From contig NJBP01000017.1 of NCBI GenBank assembly GCA_005223085.1, positions 1-35,147 on the forward strand: a DNA stretch of 35,147 nucleotides, read 5' to 3'. Origin of the DNA: Candidatus Aerophobetes bacterium Ae_b3b. Its GTDB lineage: Bacteria > Aerophobota > Aerophobia > Aerophobales > AE-B3A. Shown here one piece after another: positions 2,697-30,684 of the stretch. Below the pieces are notes generated by a model. That model saw nothing but the letters and a program-made list of their open reading frames with translations. It searched no databases and was not told the DNA's origin. A program made the translations under genes and the position numbers. The stretch's first letter is position 1. Every line of letters starts with the position of its first letter.

Positions 2697-2899
2697 CTAT
2701 CCCGGTAAAAATAATAGAAATTAAGGGTAAATTAGGAATTGGAGAGGTAGGGGGAGTGAAAAGGAAGGTGAGTCTCCTCCTTTTAGATGAGGTAAAAGTG
2801 GGAGATTATGTCTTATTGCATGCGGGATTTGCCATAAGCAAAGTTAAGAAAGAAGAGGCGGAAGAGCTCCTTGAGATGCTAGCCTCTCTTGACGTGTAA
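2687..2899 (+). CDS. hypC: Hydrogenase assembly chaperone HypC
   Basis: HypC (70 aa) binds HypD and the hydrogenase large-subunit precursor and carries the Fe(CN)2CO unit between them. The protein begins MCIAIPVKI, with the essential Cys2 exposed after removal of the first Met, and has the small beta-barrel pattern of the HypC/HupF family. An AGGAG six bases before the ATG supports this start. It overlaps hypF and is followed 11 bases later by hypD, in the standard hypFCD order. Confidence 0.96.
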   Translation: MCIAIPVKIIEIKGKLGIGEVGGVKRKVSLLLLDEVKVGDYVLLHAGFAISKVKKEEAEELLEMLASLDV

Positions 2900-2910
2900 A
2901 GACTCAAGAA

Positions 2911-4005: not shown

Positions 4006-4084
4006 GATTGTCATTTCAATGTAGGAAAATCAAACTTCCCTCTTTATCGGATGTCTTGTCTGAACTAGAAATAATTTGATCCTT

Positions 4085-5734: not shown

Positions 5735-5763
5735 ACCGTCCTCCCGGTATTAATATTCACTAT

Positions 5764-6549
5764 TTACTTTTCCACCTTCTCCAGTTCTTGATGTTTCTCT
5801 TTTTCTAAATCCGCTTTATAAAACTCGGCACCTTCCGGCAATACCATATAAAATTCAGAAGTATAATCAATTTCAATCCTCACATTTTGTAGCTGGCATT
5901 CCAATAAGTGTCCTCCCGCTTTTCTATCTTCGGTAATAAAATGAAGATGATAACCCGGAACATTTATCCCTTTTATATAGATAGGACAGCGAAACCCTGC
6001 TATTGTACCTTTTACATTATGAAACTCAAATATCGGCTGGTTCTTTACTACTTCAACAAGTGGAGGATATGGTTTGTTTTGCTTGGGGATACTCCTTGTC
6101 TTGATATACTTGAAAATTCCCTCTATTTTGAGAGCATAGAAAATATTTTTGGTTGGCAGCAAATTGTCTAAATGTTGTTGCAACTCTTTATAATCCACCG
6201 ACTTGTCTAACAATACCGTCTTATCCGGTTCAAAGTAAGTTACCACAGCAAATGGTGTTCTCATTGAGCCATCAACAAGATAGGCTATCCCATCTGCTTT
6301 TATTTGATAAAATTTGCCCTCCAATCCAATCATTTCTCCATCAAGGCCATTAAAAGTACCTAGTCCAAAGTCACCGTATCGTTTCAATTGTTCATAAGTC
6401 ATTTCTCCATCGTAGACCCCTTCTAAAAGAGCATTAACGGTTGAGGCTTGAAATAGAACATCTTTTTTTTCTTGCACACTTGAATATCCAGATATAGCTA
6501 CAACTATAACAAAAAATACTACCAGCCATAAATAACTAATGACTTTCAT
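5764..6549 (-). CDS. Alpha-acetolactate decarboxylase with export signal
   Basis: Acetolactate decarboxylase converts alpha-acetolactate to acetoin. The 261-aa product matches the family closely: LLEGVYDGEMTYEQLKRYGDFGLGTFNGLDGEM, and the zinc-ligand region PGYHLHFITEDRKAGGH with its three histidines. I chose the ATG at 6549 because AAGGAG lies just upstream; the ORF-track start 16 codons earlier has no such site. The first about 20 residues are a hydrophobic signal segment. It ends in ISGYSS, where a lipoprotein would read SGCSS; TAT instead of TGT would remove the lipidation Cys. No acetolactate synthase is seen nearby. Upstream of the nucleotidase-like gene, probably co-transcribed. Confidence 0.92.
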   Translation of the reverse strand: MKVISYLWLVVFFVIVVAISGYSSVQEKKDVLFQASTVNALLEGVYDGEMTYEQLKRYGDFGLGTFNGLDGEMIGLEGKFYQIKADGIAYLVDGSMRTPFAVVTYFEPDKTVLLDKSVDYKELQQHLDNLLPTKNIFYALKIEGIFKYIKTRSIPKQNKPYPPLVEVVKNQPIFEFHNVKGTIAGFRCPIYIKGINVPGYHLHFITEDRKAGGHLLECQLQNVRIEIDYTSEFYMVLPEGAEFYKADLEKEKHQELEKVEK

Positions 6550-6692
6550 TATTTCTCCTTTGGAATTGAACCGATTTAATGATTCGTAGAATCCCATTAA
6601 TACTGAAGCATCTCAACTATTTAACCTTCGCTGAACGAAATCAACATCAATGCCCCAGGGTCCGACCTTATATATACTCATGTCTTGTCGTT

Positions 6693-8009
6693 TTACTGGT
6701 CGATCTCGGCGAAGGTTTTGTCAAGCCAATCGAAGATACGCTGGTGAGAAAGCGCGCTGGCGCCAACCTGGCAATGTTCCCCGGCCGACTCTTCGCTGGT
6801 AAAGAACATAAATTCTTTGGGACATATCAGGGCGCTGTAAAGCTTTCGGGCTTGCCCGGGGAAGTCTCGGTCTGCCTCGGAATCACAAACCAATGTGGGA
6901 CAGGTAATTTTGTCCGCTATACCTCTCATTGTGTAATCAATGTATTTGAGCATCCACTCGTGCGGAGAGGCTACTCCAAACGTCCACATTCCCTGCTGTA
7001 TGGCCCATCTCAGTTGCGTATTCGACTTGGCCATTTCTATCATCTCGTCGTCAAAATCCGATGGGTTTTGCATCAGATACTCTTTAAGGTCTTCTGGGGA
7101 TTCTTGGGAATGAGCTGCCATGCCTTCGAAGACACTGAAGATTCCTCCATTGGCAATGCAGGCAGCGATGCGGTGCTCGTAGGCAGCAGCACGAGGTGCA
7201 AGATAACCGCCGAAGCTCAAGCCCATGAGGGCGATGCGGTTGGGATCGACTTCAGGCCTCGTCAATGCGTAGTCGACCACAGGCGTAACTACCTTCTCCC
7301 AGTCGGGTCGGAAATGAATCTTCTGCTCGCGTATGACCCTGCCCTGCCCGGGACCTTCGAATGCCAAGCAGTTATAGCCTCGCCGCAGAGCAGCCGCCGC
7401 ACCATCGAAGTAGAGTTCTTCAAGGGTTCCGTCAAAGCCTGTATGAAGGATCAGTGTGGGGCGGGGAGTACCCGAGTCATCCACGAGGAAAAAGTACCCA
7501 GGTAGGGTTGTCCCTTCATAGGGAATTTCCACAGCCTCGGCTGGGAATGGGAAGAACTGTGCTGCCCTGGCGAAACAATCATGGCTTTTTCCCCAGGTCT
7601 CCAAAATCCGTGGATCGGTAAGGTTTGCGTGAAGGAAGAACTCAGCCGAGCGATAGTACATGGAAGCCCGAAGATAGGTTTCACGGGCACTAACTCTATG
7701 CCCATCAGCCAAGCAGTTATTGGCGATCTCGCAGATCCGGTCGGCAGTCTTGAGCCACTCTTCGTACCAGCTTTCGAAATCTGCTTCTTTGATGCGGTGA
7801 GCTATGGATAGACATTCTCCGATGTCAGCGCCACCATAGTAGGTATGTCCAATCGCTCTCACCAGTTGGTATGAAAACGCGGGATCCTGAAACACGAGCT
7901 TCATTTGTGTGTCGCTCTCTCCGGGTTTTCCTGCTCCTTGGCTTGTGCAACTTAAGGTGAAAATTGTTGAGATTAGAACCAAAACCAATATAACATGCTT
8001 TAACTTCAT
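6693..8009 (-). CDS. Alpha/beta hydrolase lipoprotein (FrsA/dienelactone hydrolase-like)
   Basis: A 438-aa predicted lipoprotein with lipobox TLSC (Cys21), an alpha-helical N-terminal region (about 40-155) and an alpha/beta hydrolase fold from about 160. The nucleophile elbow is GLSFGG (Ser265); EAD (Asp380) and GEHC (His412) are plausible acid and base of the triad. The layout with a helical cap before the core resembles the FrsA/DUF1100 and 2,6-dihydropseudooxynicotine hydrolase groups. The substrate cannot be told from sequence. AGGAGG five bases before the ATG supports the start. By eye the gene is more GC-rich than the flanking hyp genes, in keeping with acquisition. First of three same-strand genes in the island. 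Confidence 0.85.
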   Translation of the reverse strand: MKLKHVILVLVLISTIFTLSCTSQGAGKPGESDTQMKLVFQDPAFSYQLVRAIGHTYYGGADIGECLSIAHRIKEADFESWYEEWLKTADRICEIANNCLADGHRVSARETYLRASMYYRSAEFFLHANLTDPRILETWGKSHDCFARAAQFFPFPAEAVEIPYEGTTLPGYFFLVDDSGTPRPTLILHTGFDGTLEELYFDGAAAALRRGYNCLAFEGPGQGRVIREQKIHFRPDWEKVVTPVVDYALTRPEVDPNRIALMGLSFGGYLAPRAAAYEHRIAACIANGGIFSVFEGMAAHSQESPEDLKEYLMQNPSDFDDEMIEMAKSNTQLRWAIQQGMWTFGVASPHEWMLKYIDYTMRGIADKITCPTLVCDSEADRDFPGQARKLYSALICPKEFMFFTSEESAGEHCQVGASALSHQRIFDWLDKTFAEIDQ

Positions 8010-8080
8010 ATCTTCCTCCTATAGATAATGCTGCAGGACGTCACCCAAATTCCTAATGTCCTTAAAATACTCGAAATAGT

Positions 8081-8100
8081 AATTACCTAACAGGGTAATT
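8081..8100. promoter_or_regulatory. Inverted repeat upstream of the hydrolase gene
   Basis: AATTACC and GGTAATT, 7-bp perfect arms separated by TAACAG, lie about 70 bases before the hydrolase start. The position fits an operator, but no cognate regulator is in the island. Only the repeat is seen; the role is a guess. Confidence 0.35.
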
Positions 8101-8153
8101 CTATCATTCATTTCACTCTACCTTTTTTCTTTTCTTCCTTCGGTTAGAGTAGC

Positions 8154-8774
8154 TTAGCGTCGTCGATATTTTGCCATAATAAATGGAATGGCAAAGTAAG
8201 GAACCTCGCTCCAATCAGGAGTCAAAAAAGATAATCCAATGCAAACTAGCGAAATAGTGGGTATAACTAGATTTCTTTTTTTATTCAAGAGTATCATCTG
8301 TGCGCCTAGGCTAGGGTCTATGAGATGGCGTTTGCCCGTGGCATACGACCACTGCATATAGAATATCGATCCAATAGCGAGCAGATTGCATTCGAAAAAT
8401 AGTGCTGCAACTTGCACGTCACCGTGTTTCGCAGTCAGGGATGTGGAAAAAGGTATCAAAGCGATGAACATCAGGCCCAGAATGTTTATCCAGAGGAGCC
8501 TCTGGTCAATAGCTTTGATGAAATGGAACTGGCGGTGATGGACAATCCAGAAGATGGCTAAAAGGATAAAGCTCAGCGCATAATTGAAAAAATCAGGCCA
8601 TAGGCCTAGCACCAGTTTGGGTAGCACCTTGGCGGCTGCTCCCTCTGGTAGAGCTGGAATCTTAAGATTTAGAACCAACAAGGTCATTGCAATAGCGAAT
8701 ACACCATCGGTCAGTGCTTCGATGCGCTTAGTGCTCAATACAGAAATTAACCTCTTAGAACTCGATGTATTCAT
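8154..8774 (-). CDS. TMEM175-family potassium channel-like membrane protein (DUF1211)
   Basis: A 206-aa integral membrane protein with about six hydrophobic segments. The first helix, RIEALTDGVFAIAMTLLVL, matches the TMEM175 signature, in which the R-x3-FSD-like motif forms the pore-lining helix. Bacterial members conduct potassium with weak selectivity and usually carry one six-helix unit, as here. I chose the ATG at 8774 because AGAGG lies six bases upstream; the TTG start 15 codons earlier has no ribosome binding site. It ends 144 bases before the hydrolase start, both on the minus strand. No regulatory site recognised. Confidence 0.85.
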   Translation of the reverse strand: MNTSSSKRLISVLSTKRIEALTDGVFAIAMTLLVLNLKIPALPEGAAAKVLPKLVLGLWPDFFNYALSFILLAIFWIVHHRQFHFIKAIDQRLLWINILGLMFIALIPFSTSLTAKHGDVQVAALFFECNLLAIGSIFYMQWSYATGKRHLIDPSLGAQMILLNKKRNLVIPTISLVCIGLSFLTPDWSEVPYFAIPFIMAKYRRR

Positions 8775-8826
8775 GTGCGGCCTCTTTACTTTAGGTTGCT
8801 GACGTTGCCCGAGGAGCAATTAACGA

Positions 8827-8970
8827 TCACTTCTTCAGGAAGGTACTGGCAAATTTACTACACAGATACGTTCCTTTAAGGTGTACTGCAATAACACGAT
8901 CCCATTCTTCTTCCGGAATCAAGCTGAATACGGCGTTTGCCATAACACCTGCATTATTTACCTCCCACAG
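8827..8970 (-). pseudogene. Relic of a short-chain dehydrogenase/reductase
   Basis: Reading the minus strand gives about 47 residues, VNNAGVMANAVFSLIPEEEWDRVIAVHLKGTYLCSK and onwards, before a stop. NNAG followed by an EWDRVI-V-L-GTY stretch is the centre of the SDR fold. The N-terminal cofactor-binding half and the catalytic Tyr-Lys half are both missing, so this is a decayed fragment. It is too short for the ORF track. It lies at the hypE-proximal edge of the island that separates hypD from hypE. Confidence 0.8.
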
Positions 8971-9134
8971 GTTAAAGACTATATCTTAATCCCAGCCTCA
9001 TCATCCACTTATACTTAAAGAAAAATCTTATTCTGCCTGCGGATTATAGCTATACCTGGCCCATTTGGAAAAAATTTAGCATTATTAATGATATTGAAAC
9101 AAATAAGTTAGTCAACTCAGTGTAGCGCGAAAGC

Positions 9135-9161
9135 TTGACAAAGAAACTCAAAGACTATAAT
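9135..9161 (+). promoter_or_regulatory. Sigma70-type promoter for hypE-rex-rnfDG
   Basis: TTGACA (9135-9140) and TATAAT (9156-9161) both match consensus perfectly, but the spacer is 15 bases instead of the usual 17. It sits 28 bases before hypE, on the island side, so hypE and the genes after it could be transcribed independently of hypFCD. Confidence 0.6.
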
Positions 9162-9189
9162 CTTTCTATAAGAATATCTGGAAGGATGA

Positions 9190-10197
9190 ATGAAAGAAAA
9201 GATCCTCTTAGCCCATGGAAGTGGGGGAAAATTATCCCACGATCTTATAAGAGAGGTTTTCCTGCCCGCATTCGATAATAAATTCTTAAGAGAATTGACC
9301 GACTCCGCCGTATTTAATCGCCAGGGATCCAGGTGGGCATTCACTACTGATTCCTATGTCATCAGACCTCTCTTTTTCCCGGGGGGGGACATTGGAAAAT
9401 TAGCCGTAAGCGGAACCATAAATGATCTAGCCGTCATGGGGGCAAAGCCGATTTTTCTTTCCTGTAGCCTTATTATCGAGGAGGGACTGAGTCTTTCTAC
9501 TTTAAAAAGGGTTATCTCTTCTATGAGGCAAACAGCGGATGATGCCGGGGTCGAAATCATTACCGGGGATACCAAAGTGGTCGAGCATGGGAGTGCTGAT
9601 GGATTGTTTATCAATACCAGCGGGATCGGACTCCTCTCTACTAAGAGTGAAACCTCCTCGCCCAGAATTAAAGCAGGAGATAAGATCATCATCAATGGGA
9701 GCATAGGAGATCATTCCATTGCCACTCTCTCCGGGCGGGAAGAATTTGATTTTCGTACCCAGGTGAAGAGCGATTGTGCTCCCTTAAATGATTTAATTGG
9801 GAAGGTTTTGAGTCAATCCTCCGGGGTAAAGCTAATGCGTGATCCAACTCGCGGTGGGGTGGCGACCATATTAAATGAGATGGCTATGGAGCAAGAGTTT
9901 GGCATTGAACTATGGGAGGAAAGAGTTCCCATTAAGCAAGAAACTATAGCTATCTCCGAGATGCTTGGTTTTGATCCTCTCTATTTGGCTAACGAAGGGA
10001 AGGTTATATTTATTGTAGAGGATGAAGAAGCTAAAAAGGTCATCAAAATATTACGATCTCATCCTTTGGGAAAGCAGAGTGAGATCATTGGTAGGGTGAT
10101 CCTGGAACCCAGAGGAAAAGTGTATCTAAGAACCTGTATCGGTACTACCAGGGTACTGGATATGCTTTCTGGGGATCAGCTTCCCCGGATCTGCTGA
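9190..10197 (+). CDS. hypE: Carbamoyl dehydratase HypE
   Basis: HypE dehydrates the thiocarbamate formed by HypF on its C-terminal cysteine to thiocyanate, donating CN to HypCD. The 335-aa protein has the PurM-like N-terminal domain (AHGSGGKLSHDLI, TTDSYVI, GTINDLAVMGAKP, SGDTKVVE-like GDTKVV) and ends in the canonical PRIC, with the modified Cys as last residue. A GGAAGG site precedes the ATG. It is separated from hypD by 5.2 kb of opposite-strand genes and has its own promoter-like sequence. rex follows 22 bases later. Confidence 0.97.
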   Translation: MKEKILLAHGSGGKLSHDLIREVFLPAFDNKFLRELTDSAVFNRQGSRWAFTTDSYVIRPLFFPGGDIGKLAVSGTINDLAVMGAKPIFLSCSLIIEEGLSLSTLKRVISSMRQTADDAGVEIITGDTKVVEHGSADGLFINTSGIGLLSTKSETSSPRIKAGDKIIINGSIGDHSIATLSGREEFDFRTQVKSDCAPLNDLIGKVLSQSSGVKLMRDPTRGGVATILNEMAMEQEFGIELWEERVPIKQETIAISEMLGFDPLYLANEGKVIFIVEDEEAKKVIKILRSHPLGKQSEIIGRVILEPRGKVYLRTCIGTTRVLDMLSGDQLPRIC

Positions 10198-10219
10198 AGG
10201 AAAATTTTGAGGGAAAAGG

Positions 10220-10843
10220 ATGCCCAGATTTAAAGTGCCAGAGGTGACTGTAGAACGGCTCTCCATTTATCTTAGAGCCATCAAGAACCTAGAGGGGGAT
10301 GAGATTCTTTCTTCCCAGGAATTGGCTGACCTGGTGGGAACCTCCGATGGACAGGTGAGAAAGGATCTTGCCTATTTCGGGGAGTTCGGTGTTCCTGGTC
10401 AGGGCTACAGAATAGCAAAACTCAAGCAGGAAATTCGCCATATTCTGGGACTCGATTCAACCTGGGGAATAGCCATAGTGGGAATAGGAAATCTAGGAGC
10501 AGCACTTCTCACCTATCCCGGCTTTAAAAGAGAGGAATTTGAGATAAGAGCTGCCTTTGATAGGGATGAATCAAAAATTGAGAAGGTGTGGCGGGGAATA
10601 AAGGTTCAGCATGTAGACAAAATTCCAAAGGTTCTATCAGAGAGGCAAATAAAGATAGGTGTCATTACTACTCCGGCCACGTCTGCCCAGGAAGTAGCTG
10701 ATAAATTGGCAAAAGGTGGAGTAAAAGGAATCTTAAACTTTGCTCCGGTGAGAATATCCGTTCCTAAAGAGATAAGACTAAAGAACGTAGACTTGAGTAT
10801 GCAACTGGAAACTCTATCTTATTTTCTAAGAAAATTGACCTGA
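10220..10843 (+). CDS. rex: Redox-sensing transcriptional repressor Rex
   Basis: Rex senses the NADH/NAD+ ratio and represses fermentation and hydrogen genes when NADH is low. The 207-aa protein has the N-terminal winged helix (ERLSIYLRAI, LSSQELADLVGTSDGQVRKDLAYFGEFG) and a Rossmann NADH domain (VGIGNLGAALL near residues 90-100), of normal length. Within the run hypE, rex, rnfD, rnfG it links redox sensing to hydrogenase maturation and Rnf. No TTGTGAAATATTTCACAA-like Rex operator was found in the window, so its targets here are unproven. Confidence 0.96.
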   Translation: MPRFKVPEVTVERLSIYLRAIKNLEGDEILSSQELADLVGTSDGQVRKDLAYFGEFGVPGQGYRIAKLKQEIRHILGLDSTWGIAIVGIGNLGAALLTYPGFKREEFEIRAAFDRDESKIEKVWRGIKVQHVDKIPKVLSERQIKIGVITTPATSAQEVADKLAKGGVKGILNFAPVRISVPKEIRLKNVDLSMQLETLSYFLRKLT

Positions 10844-10854
10844 ATTAATCAGCC

Positions 10855-11814
10855 ATGGAAAAAGATAAAGCCACTCAAAGAATCCTCATTCTTTCTTCTT
10901 CTCCACACATCCGGGACAGGCTTACCGTAGCCAGACTGATGTGGGGAGTGATAATCGCCCTTAGTCCAGCTGTGGCAGCTAGTATTTACTTTTTCGGTCT
11001 CCAGGCAGTAAAGTTAATTGGCGTTTGTAGTTTGGCTAGCCTGGCTGCAGAATATATTTTCCTGTGGCTCAGAGGCAAGAGTTTTCCCAAAGAACCGAGC
11101 GCTCTCCTTAGTGGGCTTCTTTTAGCTTTGGTTCTTCCTCCTACTTTACCTTTATGGAGTGCTGCCTTAGGAGCGGTCTTTGCTATCATTGTGGGTAAAC
11201 AGATATTCGGGGGACTGGGGTACAATATATTCAATCCGGCCCTTATTGGAAGAGCCTTTCTGGCCGCTACCTTTCCCGTCCTCATGACCACCTGGGTAAA
11301 GTCTTTTAGCCTGGCAGCCATAACTACAGCTACCCCTCTGGGGCTCATGAAGTTTGAATCCCAGTCAACTTCTCTTATTAAACTTTTCTATGGCCATGTG
11401 GGAGGTTCATTAGGAGAAACCTCAGCTCTGGCTCTTCTTATAGGAGGAGCCTATTTACTCATTAGAAGATATATTGATTGGAGGACTCCCCTTTCCTATC
11501 TAGGTACTGTAGCCCTATTAAGCGGAGTATTTTATTTAATTAGCCCCCATCAGTATGGAACTCCCCTCTTTAGTCTTTTGGCGGGAGGACTGATGCTGGG
11601 GGCCTTCTTCATGGCCACCGATCCAGTTACCACACCGGTTACCAAGCTTGGTAGATGGATCTTTGGCCTGGGAGCGGGGATTGTGGTGGTAGTCATTCGT
11701 AATTGGGGAGGATATCCGGAAGGAGTAATGTTTTCCATTCTCCTTATGAACGCCTTTACCCCTTTATTAGATAGATATATCAAGCCAAAGATTTTCGGGA
11801 GCAAGGAGCTTTGA
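10855..11814 (+). CDS. rnfD: Rnf electron transport complex subunit D
   Basis: RnfD is a membrane subunit of the ferredoxin:NAD+ oxidoreductase that pumps Na+ or H+. The 319-aa protein has about nine or ten hydrophobic segments and the NQR2/RnfD/RnfE family motifs (SPHIRD at the start, GGLGYNIFNPALIGRAFL, TDPVTTPVT). The expected covalent FMN-threonine site is seen in TTATPL (about residue 160). It starts 11 bases after rex and ends by overlapping rnfG. rnfC, which normally precedes rnfD, is not in the window. Confidence 0.95.
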   Translation: MEKDKATQRILILSSSPHIRDRLTVARLMWGVIIALSPAVAASIYFFGLQAVKLIGVCSLASLAAEYIFLWLRGKSFPKEPSALLSGLLLALVLPPTLPLWSAALGAVFAIIVGKQIFGGLGYNIFNPALIGRAFLAATFPVLMTTWVKSFSLAAITTATPLGLMKFESQSTSLIKLFYGHVGGSLGETSALALLIGGAYLLIRRYIDWRTPLSYLGTVALLSGVFYLISPHQYGTPLFSLLAGGLMLGAFFMATDPVTTPVTKLGRWIFGLGAGIVVVVIRNWGGYPEGVMFSILLMNAFTPLLDRYIKPKIFGSKEL

Positions 11815-12362
11815 GGAAATCGGTCCAGATGGTTCTGGTTTTGTCCGTAGTGGGTGTTGTGTCTGGAGGAGCTCTGGTGGGAATATACCGGTATGCCCAA
11901 CCCCGAATAGAGGTGAACAGGGAAAGGGCTCTGAGGGTAGCTATCTTCGAGGTATTACCTGGGACAGAGAGTCACGAGACCATAGTGAAAGAAGGTAAAG
12001 CGATTTATAAGGGGTTCGATTCTTCAGGACGGCTCATTGGATATGCCTTTACGGGAAATGGACCGGGATATCAGGGTACCATTGAAGTGATGATTGGTGT
12101 GGATCCTGAGCTCGAAAAAACTACAGGAATAGAGGTTCTGGAATCGGTGGAGACCCCAGGTTTGGGAGCAAAGATCACTAAAAAGCTCTTCCGGGATAAG
12201 TTCAGGGGTCTCGTAGTCAGGCCCCTCATTGAACTCATTAAGGGCAAGCCCCCCGAAGAGCCTAATCAAGTCCAGGCCATAACCGGGGCTACCATTAGCT
12301 CCCAGGCCGTAATTGACATTTTAAATAAGACCATAAAAGAGATAAGGGAAATATTGAAATAG
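11811..12362 (+). CDS. rnfG: Rnf electron transport complex subunit G
   Basis: RnfG is a single-span membrane flavoprotein facing outside the cytoplasm that passes electrons within Rnf. The 183-aa protein has one N-terminal transmembrane helix and an FMN-binding domain. The flavinylation motif ITGATIS lies near the C terminus, where FMN attaches to the Thr of S/T-GAT-S/T. It starts with TTG, overlapping the rnfD stop, with AAGGAG five bases upstream. rnfE, rnfA and rnfB would be expected next, but coding stops here. The partial operon needs partners elsewhere in the genome or is a remnant. Confidence 0.94.
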   Translation: MRKSVQMVLVLSVVGVVSGGALVGIYRYAQPRIEVNRERALRVAIFEVLPGTESHETIVKEGKAIYKGFDSSGRLIGYAFTGNGPGYQGTIEVMIGVDPELEKTTGIEVLESVETPGLGAKITKKLFRDKFRGLVVRPLIELIKGKPPEEPNQVQAITGATISSQAVIDILNKTIKEIREILK

Positions 12363-14021: not shown

Positions 14022-15107
14022 TTACACTGCCTTGAACCAATTCCTGGTAACAAGACATATCTTCACCAGCATAAGCATTATGGGAACCTCAACTAAAACT
14101 CCCACCACTGTAGCCAAGGATGAACCTGAGGCAAGGCCAAAAAGCATGGTGGAGGTGGCAATTGCTACCTCAAAATGGTTGGATGCTCCAATCATGGCAG
14201 CAGGGGCAGCATTTTCGTAGGTAAGGCCTAAAAGTTTTGCCAGAACATAACCTATGGCAAAGATGAAGCAGATCTGGACAAATAGAGGTATAGCAATAAG
14301 ACCTATGCTCTGAGGATGTTTCAGGATGACCTCACCCTTAAGGGAAAAAAGAACAACTAAGGTGACCAGAAGAGCCATAATGGAGACTGTGGTAAGCCGA
14401 TGCACAAATCTTTCCTCAAACCATTCTATACCTTTTTTCTTGATAATCTGTTTGCGAGAGAAATATCCCGCTAAAAGAGGAAGTCCCACATATATTAGGA
14501 CAGATAAAACTATAGTTTGCCAGGGAATAGGCATCCTGTTGACTCCTAATAAAAATCCTCCTAAGGGAGCGTATAAAAAAAGCATAGTCAAAGAGTTAAT
14601 TGCTACCATAATCAGAGTAAGACCATCATTTCCCCGGGCAAGATAGGACCACATCAGTACCATGGCCGTGCAAGGGGCGATTCCTAAGAGGATAGCACCT
14701 GAGATGTAGGAGCGATACAAAGGTACCTCCTGTCCGCGGATAATCTCTGTCCCCGGGATAAGGGGACGAAACAAAATTCCCAGAAAAAAAGAGGCAATAA
14801 AAAACATGGAAAACGGTTTTATAGCCCAGTTAACAATTAAAGTTAAAAATACGGGTTTGGGAGCCTTCCCTGTTTTTATCACCTGGGAAAAATCAATTTT
14901 AACCATAATTGGATACATCATGAAGAAAAGACAGATAGCAATGGGAATGGAAACCTGGGCAATACTCATTTTATCTAACCAAATGGAGAATGAGGGGAAG
15001 GCTCTTCCTATAAGGATTCCTACAATAATACACAGGGCTACCCATCCGGTCAGGTATTTTTCAAATATACTTAGTTTTTTCTCCTGAGCTTTTCTTTCAG
15101 AAGCCAT
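14022..15107 (-). CDS. acr3: ACR3-family arsenite efflux transporter
   Basis: ACR3 exports arsenite, driven by the membrane potential or proton gradient. The 361-aa protein has about ten transmembrane helices and the family motifs [18 protein letters not shown] (with the conserved Cys of helix 4) and [11 protein letters not shown] (helix 9). GAGGAG six bases upstream supports the ATG. Last gene of the arsR-led operon, 11 bases after the CcdA-like gene. Its 3' end is duplicated as a relic at 12544-12630. Confidence 0.95.
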
Positions 15108-15118
15108 TTTTCACTCCT

Positions 15119-15811
15119 CTATGAAAATAGAAAATAAAGACCAACGAGTATCACCAAAACCCCACCCACCTTTCTTAATATGGAGTTAACCTTCTGGGCT
15201 CCTTTTGACTCTATCAAGGTTTTTGCTGCACCCATAGACGTGCCAGCAACAAGGATGAGTAAACAATGCCCCAGGGCGTAAAAAAGTAATAAGATGCCTC
15301 CGTAGAATAAACTGCTCCCCCTTGCAGCAATATAGGTCAAAAGCAGCGCCAGGATGGGAACGGCACAAGGAGCAGATACGATTCCAAAAAGCATACCTAA
15401 GGCCAACGAGCTGAGTTTACCTTTCCCCAAAAACTTCGTGTTTACCGGTATGGAAAAGCTAAATTGTAAAAAACCCAACAGGTGTACCCCCATAGCTAGA
15501 GCTATGAAGGCAACGATGTACTTCCAATAACTACCCACGTCGCCGAAAAGTTTCCCCCCGAGGGCAGCAATTATTCCCAAGATAGTGAAAGTGATGGAAA
15601 GACCGAGTACGAAAAGGCCAGAGAAAATAAGTGATTTTCTGATTCCTACGGTTTGTTCATTGCCAGTGATAAAGCCAATCATAAGAGGAACCATTACGAG
15701 AACGCACGGATTGGAGGCAGTTAAAAGTCCCCCTAAGAATGCAGCCAGAGGGGCAAGCCAATGATTGGTCTGGATAATCTGGTTTATGTTTCCTAGTAGA
15801 TTTTCCAGCAC
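15119..15811 (-). CDS. CcdA/DsbD-like transmembrane thiol-disulfide carrier
   Basis: A 230-aa protein with six predicted helices of the CcdA/DsbD-beta family, which pass electrons from cytosolic thioredoxin to exported thioredoxin-fold proteins. The two redox cysteines are in place: NPC (Cys36) in helix 1 and SAPC (Cys149) in helix 4. It starts with GTG, overlapping by one base the stop of the SurA-thioredoxin gene (TAGTG), with AGGAG eight bases upstream, so the two are translationally coupled. The likely electron acceptor is that upstream-encoded protein. A different CcdA homologue is present at 22929-23666. Confidence 0.88.
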   Translation of the reverse strand: MLENLLGNINQIIQTNHWLAPLAAFLGGLLTASNPCVLVMVPLMIGFITGNEQTVGIRKSLIFSGLFVLGLSITFTILGIIAALGGKLFGDVGSYWKYIVAFIALAMGVHLLGFLQFSFSIPVNTKFLGKGKLSSLALGMLFGIVSAPCAVPILALLLTYIAARGSSLFYGGILLLFYALGHCLLILVAGTSMGAAKTLIESKGAQKVNSILRKVGGVLVILVGLYFLFS

Positions 15812-16827
15812 TATTTGACTCCTATGTCTTTAAACTTTTCTTTTATAGCTTTTTTGCTCATAAATCCTTCATGACGATAGATTTCTTTCCCTTGAGCATC
15901 AAAAAATATCTGTGTGGGGATGAGCCTTATATGATGACGTCTGGTAAGAGCGGGATGCTCATCGATTTCAATAATAAGAATAGATGTTTTCTCTTTATAT
16001 TCGGCAGCTAGTTCCTCAAGAACGGGCTTCATTTGTTTGCAGGGTATGCAAACACCCCGTCCAAAATCAGCCAGTACGGGCTGGCCTTTTTTAAGGGCTT
16101 CATCAAGCGGATTTTTCATTTTTGCCATCCGTTGGGCTTTCAGCCACTCCTCGTTCCTGGTGATTTTTGCTTTGCTTTTTAGCTCTTCTATCCATGCCTC
16201 CAGTTTTTCCTTCCTTCTTTGCTGGAGAAGATAAACCTTCAATTGAGCCTTTACTTCCTGGAAGGACTTTCCTGGGATTTCACTCTTAAGCTCCTGGTAT
16301 AGCTTTCTTATTTCCTGCGGTGAGACCTCCACTTCCTCGGTTATACCTTGAATCAGCTCCTGAATGAGGATCTCTTTTCTGCGTTCTTTATCCTTCTCAA
16401 TTTTCTCTTGAACCTCTTTCTCATTTTCTAATCCTTGTCTCTCAGCCTCTTGAAGTAGGATTTCCTTTATGATGAGCTGATTGAGAAGTTCTTCCTTGTC
16501 ATGCTCAAAAATCTCTCGATATTGAGCGGAAAGATTCGCCAATTCTTGGTCAAACGCTTCAGAGGTAATGATTTTCCCATTGACTTTGGCCAGTATTACC
16601 ATCTTTTTGTCTTCTGGTATGACGACTTTGGAAGGGAACTCTGAGACCTCTTCTTCTTTTTTGGGTAAATCCATCTCCTTTTGGCTCTTTTGCTCAGGGA
16701 CTGGCGTGACTATTCTCGATTCGTCGGGGACAGACGACTGACGAGCTTTGTTAAATAGAAAGCCTCCCAGGAGAACGAGGGCTATCACCACTAGAACTAT
16801 TATGTTCGTCCAAATCTTTTTATTCAT
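15811..16827 (-). CDS. Membrane-anchored SurA-like/thioredoxin fusion protein
   Basis: A 338-aa protein with one N-terminal transmembrane helix (about 9-25) and a charged linker (30-75). A SurA/trigger-factor-like chaperone domain follows (about 78-220; VNGKIITSEAFDQEL, ELLNQLIIKEILLQEAE, highly helical), then a C-terminal thioredoxin domain (about 245-335) with active site C260-I-P-C263 and cis-Pro segment LIPTQIFF. The topology places both domains outside the cytoplasm. The peptidyl-prolyl isomerase domain usual in SurA is replaced by thioredoxin. It overlaps the CcdA-like gene, which probably reduces it. Five bases separate it from the MtrA-like gene. The fusion is one continuous ORF; its exact role is inferred. 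Confidence 0.85.
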   Translation of the reverse strand: MNKKIWTNIIVLVVIALVLLGGFLFNKARQSSVPDESRIVTPVPEQKSQKEMDLPKKEEEVSEFPSKVVIPEDKKMVILAKVNGKIITSEAFDQELANLSAQYREIFEHDKEELLNQLIIKEILLQEAERQGLENEKEVQEKIEKDKERRKEILIQELIQGITEEVEVSPQEIRKLYQELKSEIPGKSFQEVKAQLKVYLLQQRRKEKLEAWIEELKSKAKITRNEEWLKAQRMAKMKNPLDEALKKGQPVLADFGRGVCIPCKQMKPVLEELAAEYKEKTSILIIEIDEHPALTRRHHIRLIPTQIFFDAQGKEIYRHEGFMSKKAIKEKFKDIGVK

Positions 16828-16832
16828 CTGGG

Positions 16833-17534
16833 TTATTCCTCTCTTGGTTCTCTTTTCTTTCGTTCTTCTACCCTTTTCTTCACCAATGTCATTATATCTT
16901 GGAGCTTTTGCACTTGTCTACGTTCCTGTTCATCCTTTGGCTCAGCCTGGGGTCGAGTTACTCTCCAGGTAATTTTCCTGCATACAGCTTTGCCAGGATA
17001 GGCACCTGGATCGTACAAGATGTAGGCTCGAAACTGAGTGGGCTCTTCTTGATAACAAGACCAAACTGCTTGTCTAACCATATCGGGATGTCCCTCATTG
17101 AGAAGATTGACCAACTTGACCTGTTTTCTGAATCTCTCAACATCTTCAGCAGGGATGTTGAAAAGATAGGGAGTAGGAGCCTTGGTACCCACAATCCGTT
17201 TTCTTTGATCTATTCCATTTTGGAAGAGCGCAATGAAGGATTCACCGGTAAGGTGTCCAGGTGATTCCGGGCCGGCAAGAACCAAGTAACGAATATTGGG
17301 ATTTGCCACGACATTACAGATTATTTTTTCTATTCCAATGTTTTCAGTTTGGAGTGTCCCTGATAGAGCAGCGCCACTTTCCACACCAGTCCTCACCAGT
17401 GTTTCAATCCCGGGAGGGATATTGTCGTAGGGATGCATTAAAATTATCACCACAGCAACAGGCGAGTAATCGTTACCTCTCAAATAGCGGCCTTCCTCTG
17501 GAGGATATCCAGAGGGGACTTCAACCTTTCTCAC
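16833..17534 (-). CDS. MtrA-like corrinoid protein (tetrahydromethanopterin S-methyltransferase subunit A homologue)
   Basis: MtrA carries the cobamide prosthetic group of the methanogen Mtr complex. This protein matches its soluble domain: [85 protein letters not shown]. The His in SPGHLTGES aligns, from memory of the family, with His84 of MtrA, the lower cobalt ligand. The C terminus is a charged helix, not the MtrA membrane anchor, so it should be cytosolic. I prefer GTG 17534: it overlaps the thioredoxin stop (GTGA) with AGGAGG ten bases upstream; ATG 17558 would add eight residues. No other Mtr subunits are present. Placement inside an arsenic operon is unusual. Confidence 0.85.
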   Translation of the reverse strand: [233 protein letters not shown]

Positions 17535-17776
17535 CTTTCTTGAGCCTCCTGTAGCCATTTTTTTATCTTCTCCGGAGGTGCTATCTCGCCTGAGGATTTG
17601 ACCTTACCGTCAATTGCCAGAGCCGGAGTCATCATTACCCCGAATTTAGTAATCTCCTTTATGTCCTGCACTTTTTCAATCTCGGCATCAACTCCAAGCT
17701 CCTCAATTGCTTTTCTGGCATGAGCTTCTAGTTTTTTACACCTGGGACAGCCTGTTCCAAGAATTTGCACTTTCAT
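17531..17776 (-). CDS. Small thioredoxin (redox-active disulfide protein 2 family)
   Basis: An 81-aa thioredoxin-fold protein, MKVQILGTGCPRCKKLE, with a C-P-R-C active site, the cis-Pro stretch MMTPALAIDG and little else, as in the TIGR00412 family. Such mini-thioredoxins are often found next to DUF318/ArsP permeases. GGAGG precedes the ATG, 26 bases after the permease stop. Its 3' end contains the AGGAGG that serves the next gene. It probably supplies cytosolic thiol reduction to this operon. Confidence 0.92.
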   Translation of the reverse strand: MKVQILGTGCPRCKKLEAHARKAIEELGVDAEIEKVQDIKEITKFGVMMTPALAIDGKVKSSGEIAPPEKIKKWLQEAQER

Positions 17777-17802
17777 AACTTACATCCTCCTTGTTTCAAT
17801 AT

Positions 17803-18831
17803 TTAGAAAACAAAATTTCCAAAAATCATTCCTATAAAAGTGGACATAATAACCACAAGTCCTATGTAAACTAAGGCTCTTTTTGTTCCCATGATACTTC
17901 TTATAACCAGCATATTAGGCAGGGATAATGCAGGTCCTGCCAGAAGTAAGGCTAAGGCGGGACCTTTTCCCATACCAAGACCTAAAAAGGCTTTCAGAAT
18001 AGGAACCTCGGTTAAGGTAGCGAAATACATTAAAGCGCCTGCCACTGAGGCGATGAAGTTAGATCTCAAGGCATTTCCTCCCACCCAGGTTTGGATTACC
18101 TCAGGTGGAAGTATCGCTTTAATTATCCCGGCAGCAAATACTCCGACCAAAAGCCAGGGTAGGATAAGTCGTACAAATTGCCAGGTCGATGCAAGCCAGG
18201 ATAGAATTTCTTCTTTTGTGAAATATAGCTTCAGCAGAACAATTAAACCCATCAACAGAAAAACCACTATCCACCACTTTCCCCAGGCTCCCAAAATCAG
18301 TATAGCTACAAGATCGGCAAAGAAAAAAAGGATTACCAGACCACTTTTTTGAGGTTTGTTTGACGTAGCTGTAAGAGAAAATTCTATTTTTTCTTTTCTT
18401 CTTTTCTCAAAAACCCATGACATAATAAGGCCAATGATTATGGAAAAACTAACTGCACCGGCTGCTCTTGCTATACCTAAATCAACTCCTAAAAGGCGGG
18501 CAGAGTAAATGATAGCCAGGAGATTTATGGCCGGGCCTGAATATAAAAAAGTGGTGGCAGGTCCTATTCCTGCCCCCATAGTGTAAATTCCAGAAAAAAG
18601 AGGCAAGATAGTACAGCTACAAACAGCAAGGACTGTTCCTGCCACGGAGGCAACAGCATAGGATAAAGCTTTGTTGGCCTCTGGTCCAAAATACTTTAAA
18701 ATGACTTCTTTTTTCACCATACTGCTTATGGCACCTGCTATAAAGAAAGCAGGGACAAGACAGGTTAAAACATGGAAAGACAAATACTCAAGGAGTGCTT
18801 CTACTCCGGATAAAAGAACGGATGTCCACAT
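17803..18831 (-). CDS. ArsP/DUF318-type permease
   Basis: A 342-aa membrane protein with about ten helices and the family signatures VCSCTILPLFSGIYTMGAGIGPATTFLYSGPAINLLAI and ATLTEVPILKAFLGLGMGKGPALALLLAGPALSLPN. Characterised ArsP members export trivalent methyl and aromatic arsenicals. The Cys pair in CSC is compatible with binding soft ligands. It follows arsR by 54 bases; its own Shine-Dalgarno is weak (AAGGCG). Preference for organic arsenic rests on family knowledge and the neighbouring ACR3, which would deal with inorganic arsenite. Confidence 0.88.
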   Translation of the reverse strand: MWTSVLLSGVEALLEYLSFHVLTCLVPAFFIAGAISSMVKKEVILKYFGPEANKALSYAVASVAGTVLAVCSCTILPLFSGIYTMGAGIGPATTFLYSGPAINLLAIIYSARLLGVDLGIARAAGAVSFSIIIGLIMSWVFEKRRKEKIEFSLTATSNKPQKSGLVILFFFADLVAILILGAWGKWWIVVFLLMGLIVLLKLYFTKEEILSWLASTWQFVRLILPWLLVGVFAAGIIKAILPPEVIQTWVGGNALRSNFIASVAGALMYFATLTEVPILKAFLGLGMGKGPALALLLAGPALSLPNMLVIRSIMGTKRALVYIGLVVIMSTFIGMIFGNFVF

Positions 18832-18885
18832 TGTTTTCGCCTTTATGTTTTAATGCTCAGATATGCATATAATGCGCAAAAAAAA

Positions 18886-19197
18886 TTAGCTCAACAGAGC
18901 AACCTTTTCCCTTGCCACCTTCTTCACAGAGCAAAGAGCGAGATCAACTATTTTATATACATTCTCATCCTCTACCCTGTAATAAACACTTACCCCTTCT
19001 TTTCGGGAGGAAAGTATCCCTGCTCTTTTTAATGCAGCAAGATGACGGGAGACATTGGACTGCTCTTCTTTTAGATAAGGTACAATCTCGCATACACACC
19101 TTTCGCCTTTTTTGAGGTAGTATAGGATTTTAATCCTTACAGGGTGAGATAAGGCCTTGAAATACTCTGCCTGGACTTCAAAAACTTCACTCTTCAC
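18886..19197 (-). CDS. arsR: ArsR-family arsenic-responsive repressor
   Basis: A 103-aa winged-helix repressor: FKALSHPVRIKILYYL, the metal-binding helix GERCVCEIVPYL with Cys34 and Cys36 (the CxC of classic ArsR), and the recognition helix EEQSNVSRHLAALKRAGIL. Arsenite or similar thiophilic ions would release it from DNA. It starts at GTG 19197 with GGAG eight bases upstream. First gene of the seven-gene operon, with a consensus promoter and a palindrome just upstream, so autoregulation is likely. Confidence 0.95.
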   Translation of the reverse strand: MKSEVFEVQAEYFKALSHPVRIKILYYLKKGERCVCEIVPYLKEEQSNVSRHLAALKRAGILSSRKEGVSVYYRVEDENVYKIVDLALCSVKKVAREKVALLS

Positions 19198-19221
19198 TCT
19201 TGCTTCTCCTTTCTCTATGAT

Positions 19222-19243
19222 TATATGATTAAATGCTCATATA
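19222..19243. promoter_or_regulatory. Probable ArsR operator
   Basis: TATATGA-TTAAATGC-TCATATA: 7-bp perfect inverted arms with an 8-base spacer, an AT-rich arrangement like known ArsR/SmtB sites. It lies directly after the -10 of the arsR promoter, covering the transcription start, where a repressor blocks initiation. A related half (TTAATGCTCAGATATGCATAT) is in the arsR-arsP gap near 18850. Confidence 0.72.
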
Positions 19244-19245
19244 GT

Positions 19246-19273
19246 ATTATAAATAAGTTTATCTTTCTGTCAA
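19246..19273 (-). promoter_or_regulatory. Promoter of the arsenic operon
   Basis: On the minus strand TTGACA (19273-19268), a 16-base spacer and TATAAT (19251-19246), both perfect. It is 49 bases before the arsR start and abuts the palindromic operator. Confidence 0.85.
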
Positions 19274-22294: not shown

Positions 22295-22879
22295 TCACCT
22301 TGATTTTGGCAGAAGATGCTCTATTAATTTAAAAGCATCGTCACTGGCCCAATGTCTTGCTCCCAAGGCCTTGCCTACTATTCTTCCCCTCGGATCAAGG
22401 AGATAAGTGGTGGGGATAGCCGTGATCCCATAAGTGTTTGCTACTTCACCCCCGGAATCTAAAAGTACGGGGAAAGTATAGCCGTTCTCTTTCACAAAGG
22501 AGCTTACCTCATCTTTTCTCTCTCTAAGATCCACCGCCAGAATAACAAAATCTTCGTCCTTAAATTTCTGCCAGAGTTTCTCCATATCGGGCATTTCTAT
22601 ACGACAGGGAGGACACCAGGTAGCCCAGAAGTTGAGGAAAATGACCTTTCCCTCAAAATCCCTTAGGCTCACGGCAGATCCTTTCAGATCCTCCAGCGTA
22701 AAATCCTTTGCTTTTACCGGAGGGTTAATCTTTTGAATACCCAGAGATGAAAAGAAATCCTTGTATCTCTCTTCCTCCACTTTCTTCATTTTTACAGACA
22801 ATGTGTAAAGATAGAGAGAAATAAGGGAAACAGCTACTAGTAAAATGACCCCTACTATGATCCATTTTCTTGGCTTCAT
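22295..22879 (-). CDS. TlpA/ResA-like membrane-anchored thioredoxin
   Basis: A 194-aa protein with one N-terminal helix (about 6-27) and an AhpC/TSA-thioredoxin-like domain with active site W-C89-P-P-C92 and cis-Pro segment AIPTTYLLDPRG. Members reduce disulfides outside the cytoplasm, for example in apocytochrome c. It lies 49 bases after a ccdA gene on the same strand, the usual electron-relay pair. No cytochrome c genes are in the window, so the client is unknown. Confidence 0.93.
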   Translation of the reverse strand: MKPRKWIIVGVILLVAVSLISLYLYTLSVKMKKVEEERYKDFFSSLGIQKINPPVKAKDFTLEDLKGSAVSLRDFEGKVIFLNFWATWCPPCRIEMPDMEKLWQKFKDEDFVILAVDLRERKDEVSSFVKENGYTFPVLLDSGGEVANTYGITAIPTTYLLDPRGRIVGKALGARHWASDDAFKLIEHLLPKSR

Positions 22880-22928
22880 CGCCTTCTCTCTCCATTGAGT
22901 TTCAGGTCGCCCAACTTAGCCTGATCCC

Positions 22929-23666
22929 TTAAAAACTGAATCTACTCAAAAAGGGGAACCACCGATTAAAGATGGCCGTTAAAATCAAGAAATAATTACT
23001 CATTAAGAGAATTCCTACCCCTATGAGAAAGATACCGCTAATTAAGGAAATTAATCGAAGGTGTCTCTTTAGTTTCTGATAACGCTCTAAGAAAGCCTCC
23101 AATCCCCAGGAACATAAGAAAAAGGGTAAGGCAAAGCCGGCTGAGTAAACTCCCAAAAGAGCTATGCCCGACCACATAGAATTAGTGGTAGAGGCATAAA
23201 AGAGGATAGAGGCAAGAATAGGGCCGATGCAGGGGGTCCAACCAGCAGCAAAGGCTACTCCCACTAAGGAAGAGCCAAGATAGCCCATCGGCTTTTCCTT
23301 AAGATGAAACTTCCTCTCCTTTTGAAGAAAATTCAGATTAATCAGCCCGGTAAATTGAATACCCAGGAGAATAATAAAGGCTCCTCCTATTCTGGATATC
23401 CATCCCTGGTATTTAATGAGAATCTTTCCCGCCAGAGAAGCTGAGGCTCCCAGAAGAATGAAAATAAGGGAAAAACCCAGAATGAACATTAAAGAGTGAA
23501 TTATGGTGATTTTTCTTACTTTGGGCTTTCTTTCCTCCCTGATTAGCTCATCCAGAGAGATTCCGGTAATAAAGGAAAGATAAGAAGGAAGGAGAGGGAG
23601 AACACAAGGGGAAAGAAAGGAAAGGATTCCTGCCCCTAAGGCAATAACGAAGGATACATTTTCCAT
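22929..23666 (-). CDS. ccdA: Cytochrome c biogenesis protein CcdA
   Basis: A 245-aa membrane protein with six helices and both redox cysteines (LSPCVLPLLPSYLSFITG in helix 1; GWTPCIGPILASIL in helix 4). It moves reducing equivalents from cytosolic thioredoxin across the membrane to exported thioredoxins, here most likely the TlpA-like protein encoded next. Longer and more typical than the CcdA-like protein of the arsenic operon. The 219 bases between it and the exported protein gene show nothing recognisable. Confidence 0.93.
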   Translation of the reverse strand: MENVSFVIALGAGILSFLSPCVLPLLPSYLSFITGISLDELIREERKPKVRKITIIHSLMFILGFSLIFILLGASASLAGKILIKYQGWISRIGGAFIILLGIQFTGLINLNFLQKERKFHLKEKPMGYLGSSLVGVAFAAGWTPCIGPILASILFYASTTNSMWSGIALLGVYSAGFALPFFLCSWGLEAFLERYQKLKRHLRLISLISGIFLIGVGILLMSNYFLILTAIFNRWFPFLSRFSF

Positions 23667-27294: not shown

Positions 27295-27516
27295 TTAGAC
27301 CGCTTCCACCCTTTTTACTTCTGGAACTTCCTTTTTAAGAACTCTTTCAATCCCCGCCTTTAGAGTCATCGTCGCCATAGGGCAACCTCCACAGGCTCCG
27401 GTAAGTCTAACCTTGACTACTCCCTCATCGTTAACTTCAATCAGTTCCACATCTCCCCCGTCGGCTTGTAAGGATGGCCTTACCTTGGCCAGGGCTTTCT
27501 CAACCTTTTCTTGCAT
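27295..27516 (-). CDS. NifU-like Fe-S scaffold (C-terminal domain)
   Basis: A 73-aa NifU C-terminal domain protein, [24 protein letters not shown] and [22 protein letters not shown], with the cluster-binding Cys42 and Cys45. It assembles or carries 4Fe-4S clusters to client proteins. GGAGG precedes the ATG; the start overlaps the end of the Rrf2 gene by 17 bases, so the two are coupled and an Fe-S-sensing regulator controls an Fe-S carrier. Confidence 0.94.
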
Positions 27517-27925
27517 TTTGTTTTCCTCCCTCGATCAGATCCTTAATGGTAGTGCTGTTTAAAATTTCAAAAAAATTCTGCTGGGTTTTTCGCCAGAAAT
27601 TCGAGGCCATGCATTCACTAGAGCGAGGACAATTCTCTTTTTCTCGAAGACACCTGACCAAGCCCATTTCTTCTTCTAAAGGCTTAATTACCTCGGCTAC
27701 GGTGATATCTCTTGCGGAACGAGCAAGACTAACTCCTCCCCCTCTACCCTTGAAGGAATTAATTATACCAGATTTGACTAAGGTTTGGAATATCTTTCTT
27801 AAAAATTCTTCAGGGATCTCGGTGGCCCGGGAAATTTCGTCTAGAGAGTAGCGGCGATCTTCACTCCTCTGAGATAAATAAAGAACGGCCGCCATCCCAT
27901 AATCTGCTCCCTGGGTCAATTTCAT
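27500..27925 (-). CDS. IscR-like Rrf2-family regulator
   Basis: A 141-aa winged-helix regulator: [62 protein letters not shown], then Cys92, Cys99 and Cys105 ([15 protein letters not shown]). The three cysteines are at nearly the positions of the IscR cluster ligands (92, 98, 104), so a 2Fe-2S cluster is expected. It leads the nifU operon and has a GACT/AGTC palindrome at its own promoter, as in IscR autoregulation. Confidence 0.93.
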
Positions 27926-27942
27926 TAGATGTCCCTTAATTG

Positions 27943-27955
27943 GACTAATTTAGTC
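27943..27955. promoter_or_regulatory. IscR-type operator
   Basis: GACTAATTTAGTC (GACTAAATTAGTC on the gene strand), a perfect palindrome apart from its central base. It matches the GACT-N5-AGTC core of the IscR type 1 site as I know it, and lies just past the -10 of the Rrf2 gene. Confidence 0.75.
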
Positions 27956-27957
27956 TT

Positions 27958-27985
27958 ATTATAACAGAAAAATTATTCTTGTCAA
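27958..27985 (-). promoter_or_regulatory. Promoter of the Rrf2-nifU operon
   Basis: Minus-strand TTGACA (27985-27980), 16-base spacer and TATAAT (27963-27958), both perfect, 33 bases before the Rrf2 start and overlapped downstream by the IscR-type palindrome. Confidence 0.87.
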
Positions 27986-28097
27986 CCCCTTCTCCATTTT
28001 ACAGCTTGTACCATACCCAAAAAGGCCTGTGGCAACGGGAGCAAAGCTACATTTAATCTTTTTTTCATCAGCACTATGGCTTCCCCATACTCTTTTC

Positions 28098-30575: not shown

Positions 30576-30684
30576 TCTAAAGCCTCCTTTCATCAGGCAA
30601 AGAATCTTCTTAACCCACCTTTTCTAGTAAAAGCAAAACTTATTCTCTCTTTGAAACCAAGAGCGTGGTAACCATAGCTCTTAC

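Follow-up and report, generated by a model that had tools for sequence, protein, structure and literature searches.

Soluble MtrA-like proteins, predicted cobamide carriers, in arsenic and organoarsenic resistance operons of anaerobic bacteria and archaea

The window analysed here is a 35,147-nt stretch of DNA from Candidatus Aerophobetes bacterium Ae_b3b (contig NJBP01000017.1, positions 1 to 35,147; C76 in our numbering), part of a 2.04-Mb genome that is 88.6% complete. Seven genes on its minus strand, separated by short gaps or overlapping, encode an ArsR repressor, an ArsP-family permease, the mini-thioredoxin ArsE, a soluble homologue of the methanogen protein MtrA, a SurA-like/thioredoxin protein, a CcdA-like carrier and the permease Acr3. 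We consider the chances about even that the MtrA-like protein serves methylarsenicals as a dedicated cobamide methyl carrier within an ArsR-controlled ars/organoarsenical resistance operon. The seven-gene operon itself is real: the coordinates, gene order and family scores confirmed what a preliminary description had read from the sequence alone, and a chance arrangement is excluded because the whole gene set is conserved in other genomes. The proteins belong to known families, and their combination is a new variant of the ars operon. Its features, from the promoter downstream, are:

19246–19273, minus strand: promoter TTGACA-16 nt-TATAAT, 12/12 consensus match, conserved in loci L003 and L091
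19222–19241, minus strand: inverted repeat ATATGA-N8-TCATAT, read from the sequence between the −10 box and arsR
18886–19197, minus strand: arsR, ArsR/SmtB repressor with a CVC motif (NF033788, 94.5 against a cut-off of 55)
17803–18831, minus strand: ArsP-family permease (PF03773, ArsP_1, E=5e-81)
17531–17776, minus strand: arsE, MTH895/ArsE-type mini-thioredoxin with CPRC (TIGR00412, 107.6 against 62; PDB 1ilo, E=1e-20)
16833–17558, minus strand: soluble MtrA-like protein, predicted to bind cobamide (PF04208, E=7e-43; NF002126, 195.5 against 161)
15811–16827, minus strand: membrane-anchored SurA-like/thioredoxin protein with GVCIPCKQ (PF13624, SurA_N, and PF00085)
15119–15811, minus strand: CcdA/DsbD_TM-type thiol electron carrier (PF02683, E=2e-20)
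14022–15107, minus strand: acr3, arsenite efflux permease (above the TIGR00832 equivalog cut-off, 393.9 against 282.8)

The MtrA-like protein matches only MtrA families (PF04208 alone in Pfam, 146.6 against a cut-off of 25). It falls into the soluble subfamily NF002126 and scores below the equivalog of the Mtr complex, TIGR01111 (143.8 against 249.15); its C-terminal helix is charged and it has no C-terminal membrane helix. The CdhD-type corrinoid domain (PF03599) was not matched in the Pfam search. For its gene, GTG 17534 is a more likely start than 17558, since most homologues begin at that position, and the resulting GTGA overlaps the arsE stop codon. Soluble cytoplasmic MtrA homologues had already been noted, with no function assigned, by Wagner et al. 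in methanogens, other archaea and bacteria (PMC4915002), so that MtrA is not, as previously stated, known only from the Mtr complex.

In MtrA of Methanothermus fervidus the cobalt ligand is His84, held by Glu54, while Tyr18, Thr53, Gly57 and Asn64 contact the nucleotide tail of the cofactor and Asn55 contacts the ring (PMC4915002). All of these positions have their equivalents in the operon protein (H102, E72, Y25, T71, G75, N82 and N73), where His102 corresponds to His84, the probable cobalt ligand that the preliminary description took to be kept. Across about 79 homologues the equivalents of His84, Thr53, Asn55, Gly57 and Asn64 are invariant; that of Glu54 is not always kept. An AlphaFold2 model of the protein (pLDDT 90) found as its best Foldseek match in the PDB the cobalamin-loaded MtrA 5laa (E=9e-20, TM 0.93 over the target). 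Sequence and model thus agree that the cobamide pocket, whose possible loss on modelling had been raised beforehand, is retained, and from the kept pocket we infer that the MtrA-like protein binds cobamide. Two features set the family apart, an insertion of about 10 residues after the first strand (beta-1) and an extended C-terminus that has a DPGA(Y/F)P motif.

The linkage to arsenic genes extends far beyond the source genome, whose nearest MtrA-bearing relatives are metagenome-assembled genomes (MAGs) of Aerophobota. A scan of genome contigs yielded 80 homologue loci, and a core ars gene (acr3, arsP, arsE, arsM or arsC) lies within 7 kb in 51 of them, in many phyla; the occurrence of MtrA homologues beside ars genes elsewhere, which had been proposed as a test, is thereby established. 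Two or more core genes are present in 40 loci, and in 36 a core gene is directly adjacent on the same strand. The other 29 comprise 21 loci whose contigs are short on at least one side and 8 with at least 4 kb on both sides; some of the short ones look like fragments of ars operons, among them L058, which has an ArsR gene and neighbours that we take to be arsD and arsA. The homologues occur in Aerophobota, Bipolaricaulota, Spirochaetota, Actinomycetota, Chloroflexota, Planctomycetota and Thermodesulfobacteriota and, among archaea, in Methanomicrobiales, ANME-1 (Methanophagales), Bathyarchaeota and Nitrososphaerota. On the tree, linked members are mixed with unlinked ones (19 label changes), and gene order varies between loci, so one transferred block does not explain the linkage. 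Acr3 is the most frequent direct neighbour (16 cases against 6 for ArsP), and arsM lies inside or near 16 of the loci.

As a check on ascertainment, since the query had been taken from an ars operon, linkage was also counted in whole-genome samples of three groups. Four of 17 Aerophobota genomes carry the mtrA-like gene, in all four beside arsR-arsP-arsE; acr3 is present in 4/4 carriers and in 6/17 genomes overall (p=0.006). Among Dehalococcoidia, where the gene was called at E<1e-40, it was found in 10 of 197 genomes, and in eight of these acr3 is nearby on the contig that carries it, while acr3 occurs in 74/197 genomes overall; the enrichment of ArsM in carriers of this class is weak (9/10 against 111/187, p=0.048). 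Spirochaetota yielded 12 copies in 11 of 247 genomes, and 7 of the 12 stand in ars loci (L030 itself counted). One Spirochaetota genome (G246) encodes two MtrA paralogues, one in an ars operon and one outside (L110 and L119).

Carriers of the gene nearly always have a second property, the methyl branch of the Wood-Ljungdahl pathway. Matches to the CdhD family of the corrinoid iron-sulphur protein (CFeSP) exceeded the cut-off in 33 of 36 carriers, a set that includes two duplicates of others. CFeSP is present in 10/11 MtrA-positive and 20/236 MtrA-negative genomes of Spirochaetota (30/247 overall, p=1.6e-9), and in 9/10 carriers and 72/187 non-carriers of Dehalococcoidia (p=0.0017), both p-values being uncorrected for relatedness among genomes. 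This link favours methyl transfer, because a methyl carrier needs a one-carbon pool and a passive arsenic binder would not. As the association holds in unlinked members too, it supports methyl-cobamide chemistry and not arsenic as such.

A redox partner appears in part of the family. In Dehalococcoidia the arsenic-linked MtrA carries, as a fusion, the Fe-S domain known from the corrinoid iron-sulphur protein, and 11 Chloroflexota MtrA proteins end in a PF04060-type Fe-S motif (two checked by Pfam), whose closest solved relatives are CFeSP gamma subunits (2h9a, E=4e-10). Within CFeSP itself, Co(II) is reduced to Co(I) with the help of this domain. A separate PF04060 protein is encoded in several of the same ars-mtrA islands. 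In locus L063 (1-5832), two HGD-D and two BcrAD/BadFG-type ATPase genes precede mtrA-FeS, and acr3 follows after about 12 bp; the HGD-D/ATPase genes may represent an ATP-driven, low-potential type of reductant for the corrinoid. Taken together, the Fe-S fusion and the co-occurrence with the Wood-Ljungdahl pathway support methyl-transfer chemistry over passive arsenic binding.

These observations can be assembled into a scheme in which methyl transfer, arsenic as its substrate, its direction and induction by arsenite are all predictions. The MtrA-like protein would bind a cobamide base-off/His-on through His102 and would help to move methyl groups, without oxygen, between arsenic and the one-carbon pool (methyl-tetrahydrofolate, CFeSP). 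In the direction of demethylation, cob(I)amide would take CH3 from a thiol-bound methylarsenical and the released methyl would pass to the Wood-Ljungdahl pool; Acr3 would expel the arsenite formed and ArsP the arsenical left methylated, while ArsE and the CcdA-thioredoxin pair would hold arsenicals in a trivalent, thiol-bound state on either side of the membrane. It has been reported that methylotrophic methanogens demethylate dimethylarsenate, for which corrinoid transfer was suggested (PMC10579292), and that the C-As lyase ArsI requires O2 (PMC12607644). We slightly favour demethylation over methylation of the HgcA type because of this methanogen precedent, the oxygen requirement of ArsI, the presence of arsM in the genome and in 16 loci, and the rank of Acr3 as the commonest direct neighbour. 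The full proposal, an oxygen-independent, cobamide-based counterpart of ArsI in anaerobes that feeds methyls from methylarsenite or dimethylarsenicals into the Wood-Ljungdahl pathway, is put forward tentatively, as a possibility with the odds against it.

Run in reverse, the same carrier would act as HgcA does: methyl-Co(III)-MtrA, charged from methyl-tetrahydrofolate, would place CH3 onto thiol-bound arsenite, and ArsP would export the methylarsenite. Methylcobalamin is reported to methylate arsenic in a side reaction of methanogenesis (PMC13262295), HgcA/HgcB provide the precedent of a corrinoid and Fe-S pair that is sometimes flanked by acr3, arsC, arsM and arsR (PMC7438021), and the Fe-S fusion, the Wood-Ljungdahl link and the ArsP-family permease in the operon fit this direction as well. 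Such a route would be redundant with the S-adenosylmethionine-dependent arsM of the same genome and of many of the same loci, and Acr3 outnumbers ArsP as direct neighbour of MtrA; we regard it as rather unlikely. The near-restriction of the family to Wood-Ljungdahl genomes, the presence of partners for reductive activation (the Fe-S domain and the L063 HGD-D/ATPase genes) and the homologues outside ars loci, one of them by methylamine methyltransferase genes, would also suit a spare or arsenic-tolerant carrier that shields B12-dependent one-carbon metabolism and for which arsenic is no substrate. Its persistent embedding among arsenic and organoarsenical genes speaks against such cobamide maintenance, which we think improbable. 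A position beside ArsE and ArsP might instead suggest that MtrA, whether loaded with cobamide or not, binds methylarsenicals and passes them on to ArsP; the family has no conserved Cys pair, however, and a sink or chaperone would leave the Fe-S redox fusion and the co-occurrence with one-carbon genes unexplained, which makes this a very remote prospect. That mtrA has no role in arsenic metabolism and came to lie in ars islands through horizontal transfer or by chance hardly merits belief: ars islands are mobile and some homologues are unlinked to ars genes, yet the linkage recurs with varied gene order in many phyla of both domains, in the counts from all three whole-genome samples and with tight overlaps.

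Several points weigh against a dedicated methylarsenical carrier. In the published chemistry of cobamides and arsenic, methylcobalamin is the donor and arsenic the acceptor (PMC13262295), which favours methylation. The source operon contains no methyltransferase partner, either MtrH-like or substrate-specific, and its MtrA-like protein carries no Fe-S domain. The family has no invariant Cys pair for As(III), and its sole invariant cysteine, Cys168, occurs in methanogen MtrA too. At least 8 of the loci lack a nearby ars gene, and the genomes involved are mostly MAGs. Given these unlinked loci and the homologue by methylamine methyltransferase genes, the family may exceed arsenic. As a partner for the MtrA-like protein MtrH was considered and rejected, PF02007 having no match in the source genome at its 88.6% completeness; AcsE-like enzymes encoded elsewhere are candidates for the substrate-specific or tetrahydrofolate-specific methyltransferase that the operon lacks.

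Of the reasoning in the preliminary description, one strand has to be given up. The operon indeed has no arsM, as stated there, but two arsM-like genes lie elsewhere in the genome, on different contigs (L107 6541-7398, contig C65; L108 7995-8656, contig C78), the first exceeding the NF008823 arsenite methyltransferase cut-off and the second cut by the contig end. With these and with arsM in or near 16 related loci, the absence of arsM from the operon is no evidence for an alternative methylation route and is ruled out as support for one. The broader suggestion made there, of methyl transfer on a cobamide or binding of methylarsenicals, loses that argument and gains another, the Fe-S fusion and Wood-Ljungdahl co-occurrence being consistent with methyl transfer.

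The promoter, correctly recognised beforehand as a consensus promoter, precedes a putative control element. The ATATGA-N8-TCATAT repeat and the promoter hexamers are largely kept in two other Aerophobota genomes (L003, L091), and the repeat is, judged from its sequence and position, a candidate ArsR operator. The permease next to arsR is a putative organoarsenical exporter. PF03773 also includes permeases other than ArsP, and the protein scores under the cut-offs for the SaoE and SO_0444 equivalogs; a sequence search of the PDB returned no structural relative from which its substrate could be read. ArsP is described as a methylarsenite permease in work cited in PMC10060404, and the operon protein shares only the Pfam family with it.

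The CPRC protein is ArsE by its TIGR00412 score, and the thiol relay noted in the preliminary description corresponds in part to the arsEFG module, which had gone unrecognised there. No protein of the source operon matches the ArsF and ArsG models (NF040494/NF040495): the place that ArsG holds in relatives is taken by a CcdA-type carrier without a match to the ArsG model, next to the SurA-like/thioredoxin protein, which is probably extracytoplasmic. Among relatives, L007 has both ArsF and ArsG above cut-off, L049 and L056 have ArsF, and L052 and L077 have ArsG, the gene order in L077 being arsR-arsP-mtrA-arsE-(ArsF-like)-arsG. The NCBI names of the ArsF and ArsG models refer to aromatic arsenicals; the function of the module is taken here from the NCBI model names.

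Other members of the family were seen in further settings. In a Spirochaetes locus (L061 1783-4522) the MtrA-like gene adjoins genes for an MtmC-like corrinoid protein and MtmB (monomethylamine methyltransferase). At L016 (3977-5086) a protein of the URO-D superfamily, to which MtaA-type methylcobamide transferases belong, is encoded about 260 bp after acr3-mtrA. Three Methanobacteriota MAGs (L053, L070, L072) encode MtrA with a long C-terminal extension resembling a winged helix, which in L072 has no Pfam match. A single TGA in the MtrA gene of a relative (G083) was considered as selenocysteine or another recoding and proved to be the natural stop. A search of plasmids for MtrA homologues returned only distant MtrA-DUF4346 proteins. 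In two Planococcus plasmids (L082 2435-6819, L083 352-4736) an MtrA-like core with the His kept is fused to PterinBD-DUF4346; these plasmids are small, and the fusion lies directly behind genes for an ArsR/SmtB regulator, a small cation transporter and a heavy-metal P-type ATPase. The fusions are a second metal-resistance setting for MtrA domains. An MtrA-like core also occurs on a Paraburkholderia megaplasmid (L084 5695-6876).

Elsewhere in the window, a second pair of CcdA and a membrane-anchored thioredoxin-like protein is encoded apart from the ars operon (22295-23666). Positions 354-12362 hold hypF, hypD and hypE-like genes, a gene for a Rex-like regulator and RnfD/RnfG-like genes, of which the Rnf set appears partial, and 27500-30593 hold predicted genes for an Rrf2-type regulator and a heavy-metal P-type ATPase with two N-terminal metal-binding motifs.

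Overall, the data suggest that in many unrelated anaerobes an MtrA-like carrier may transfer methyl groups to or from arsenic in the absence of oxygen. It has been proposed that anaerobes use methylarsenite as a weapon against one another (PMC11653729), and straighthead disease of rice can result from dimethylarsenic in flooded paddies (PMC10579292). A corrinoid carrier in the ars operons of many anaerobic phyla is a named, testable candidate gene for anaerobic arsenic demethylation; the arsenic link would give a role to the soluble MtrA homologues and would parallel that of HgcAB for mercury. We found no literature joining MtrA with arsenic operons, and no paper joining corrinoids with arsenic demethylation, in a search that mostly excluded subscription journals.

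Compared with known systems, the operon protein shares with methanogen MtrA (PDB 5laa, 5l8x) and its soluble homologues the fold, the cobalt-ligand His and most of the cobalamin pocket. It differs from MtrA of the Mtr complex in having no transmembrane helix and no MtrB-H partners, in its insertion and C-terminal extension and in being encoded in an ars operon. HgcA/HgcB likewise combine a corrinoid carrier with an Fe-S reductant and sometimes lie beside ars genes; they methylate mercury, a different metal, whereas the direction here is predicted only, and the corrinoid domain of HgcA is of the CdhD-type family, unrelated to MtrA. The 4Fe-4S domain of the ars-linked Chloroflexota MtrA recalls the corrinoid iron-sulphur protein (AcsC/CdhE), although the corrinoid-binding part is of a different family and the source-operon copy has no such domain. 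With the arsEFG module the operon has ArsE in common, while the SurA-like/thioredoxin protein and the CcdA-type carrier replace ArsF/ArsG; the named module does not include MtrA. In its proposed role the MtrA-like protein resembles the C-As lyase ArsI, which removes methyl groups from trivalent arsenic and is likewise encoded inside ars operons; unlike ArsI, an O2-dependent Fe(II) dioxygenase, it would act without O2, through cobalt.

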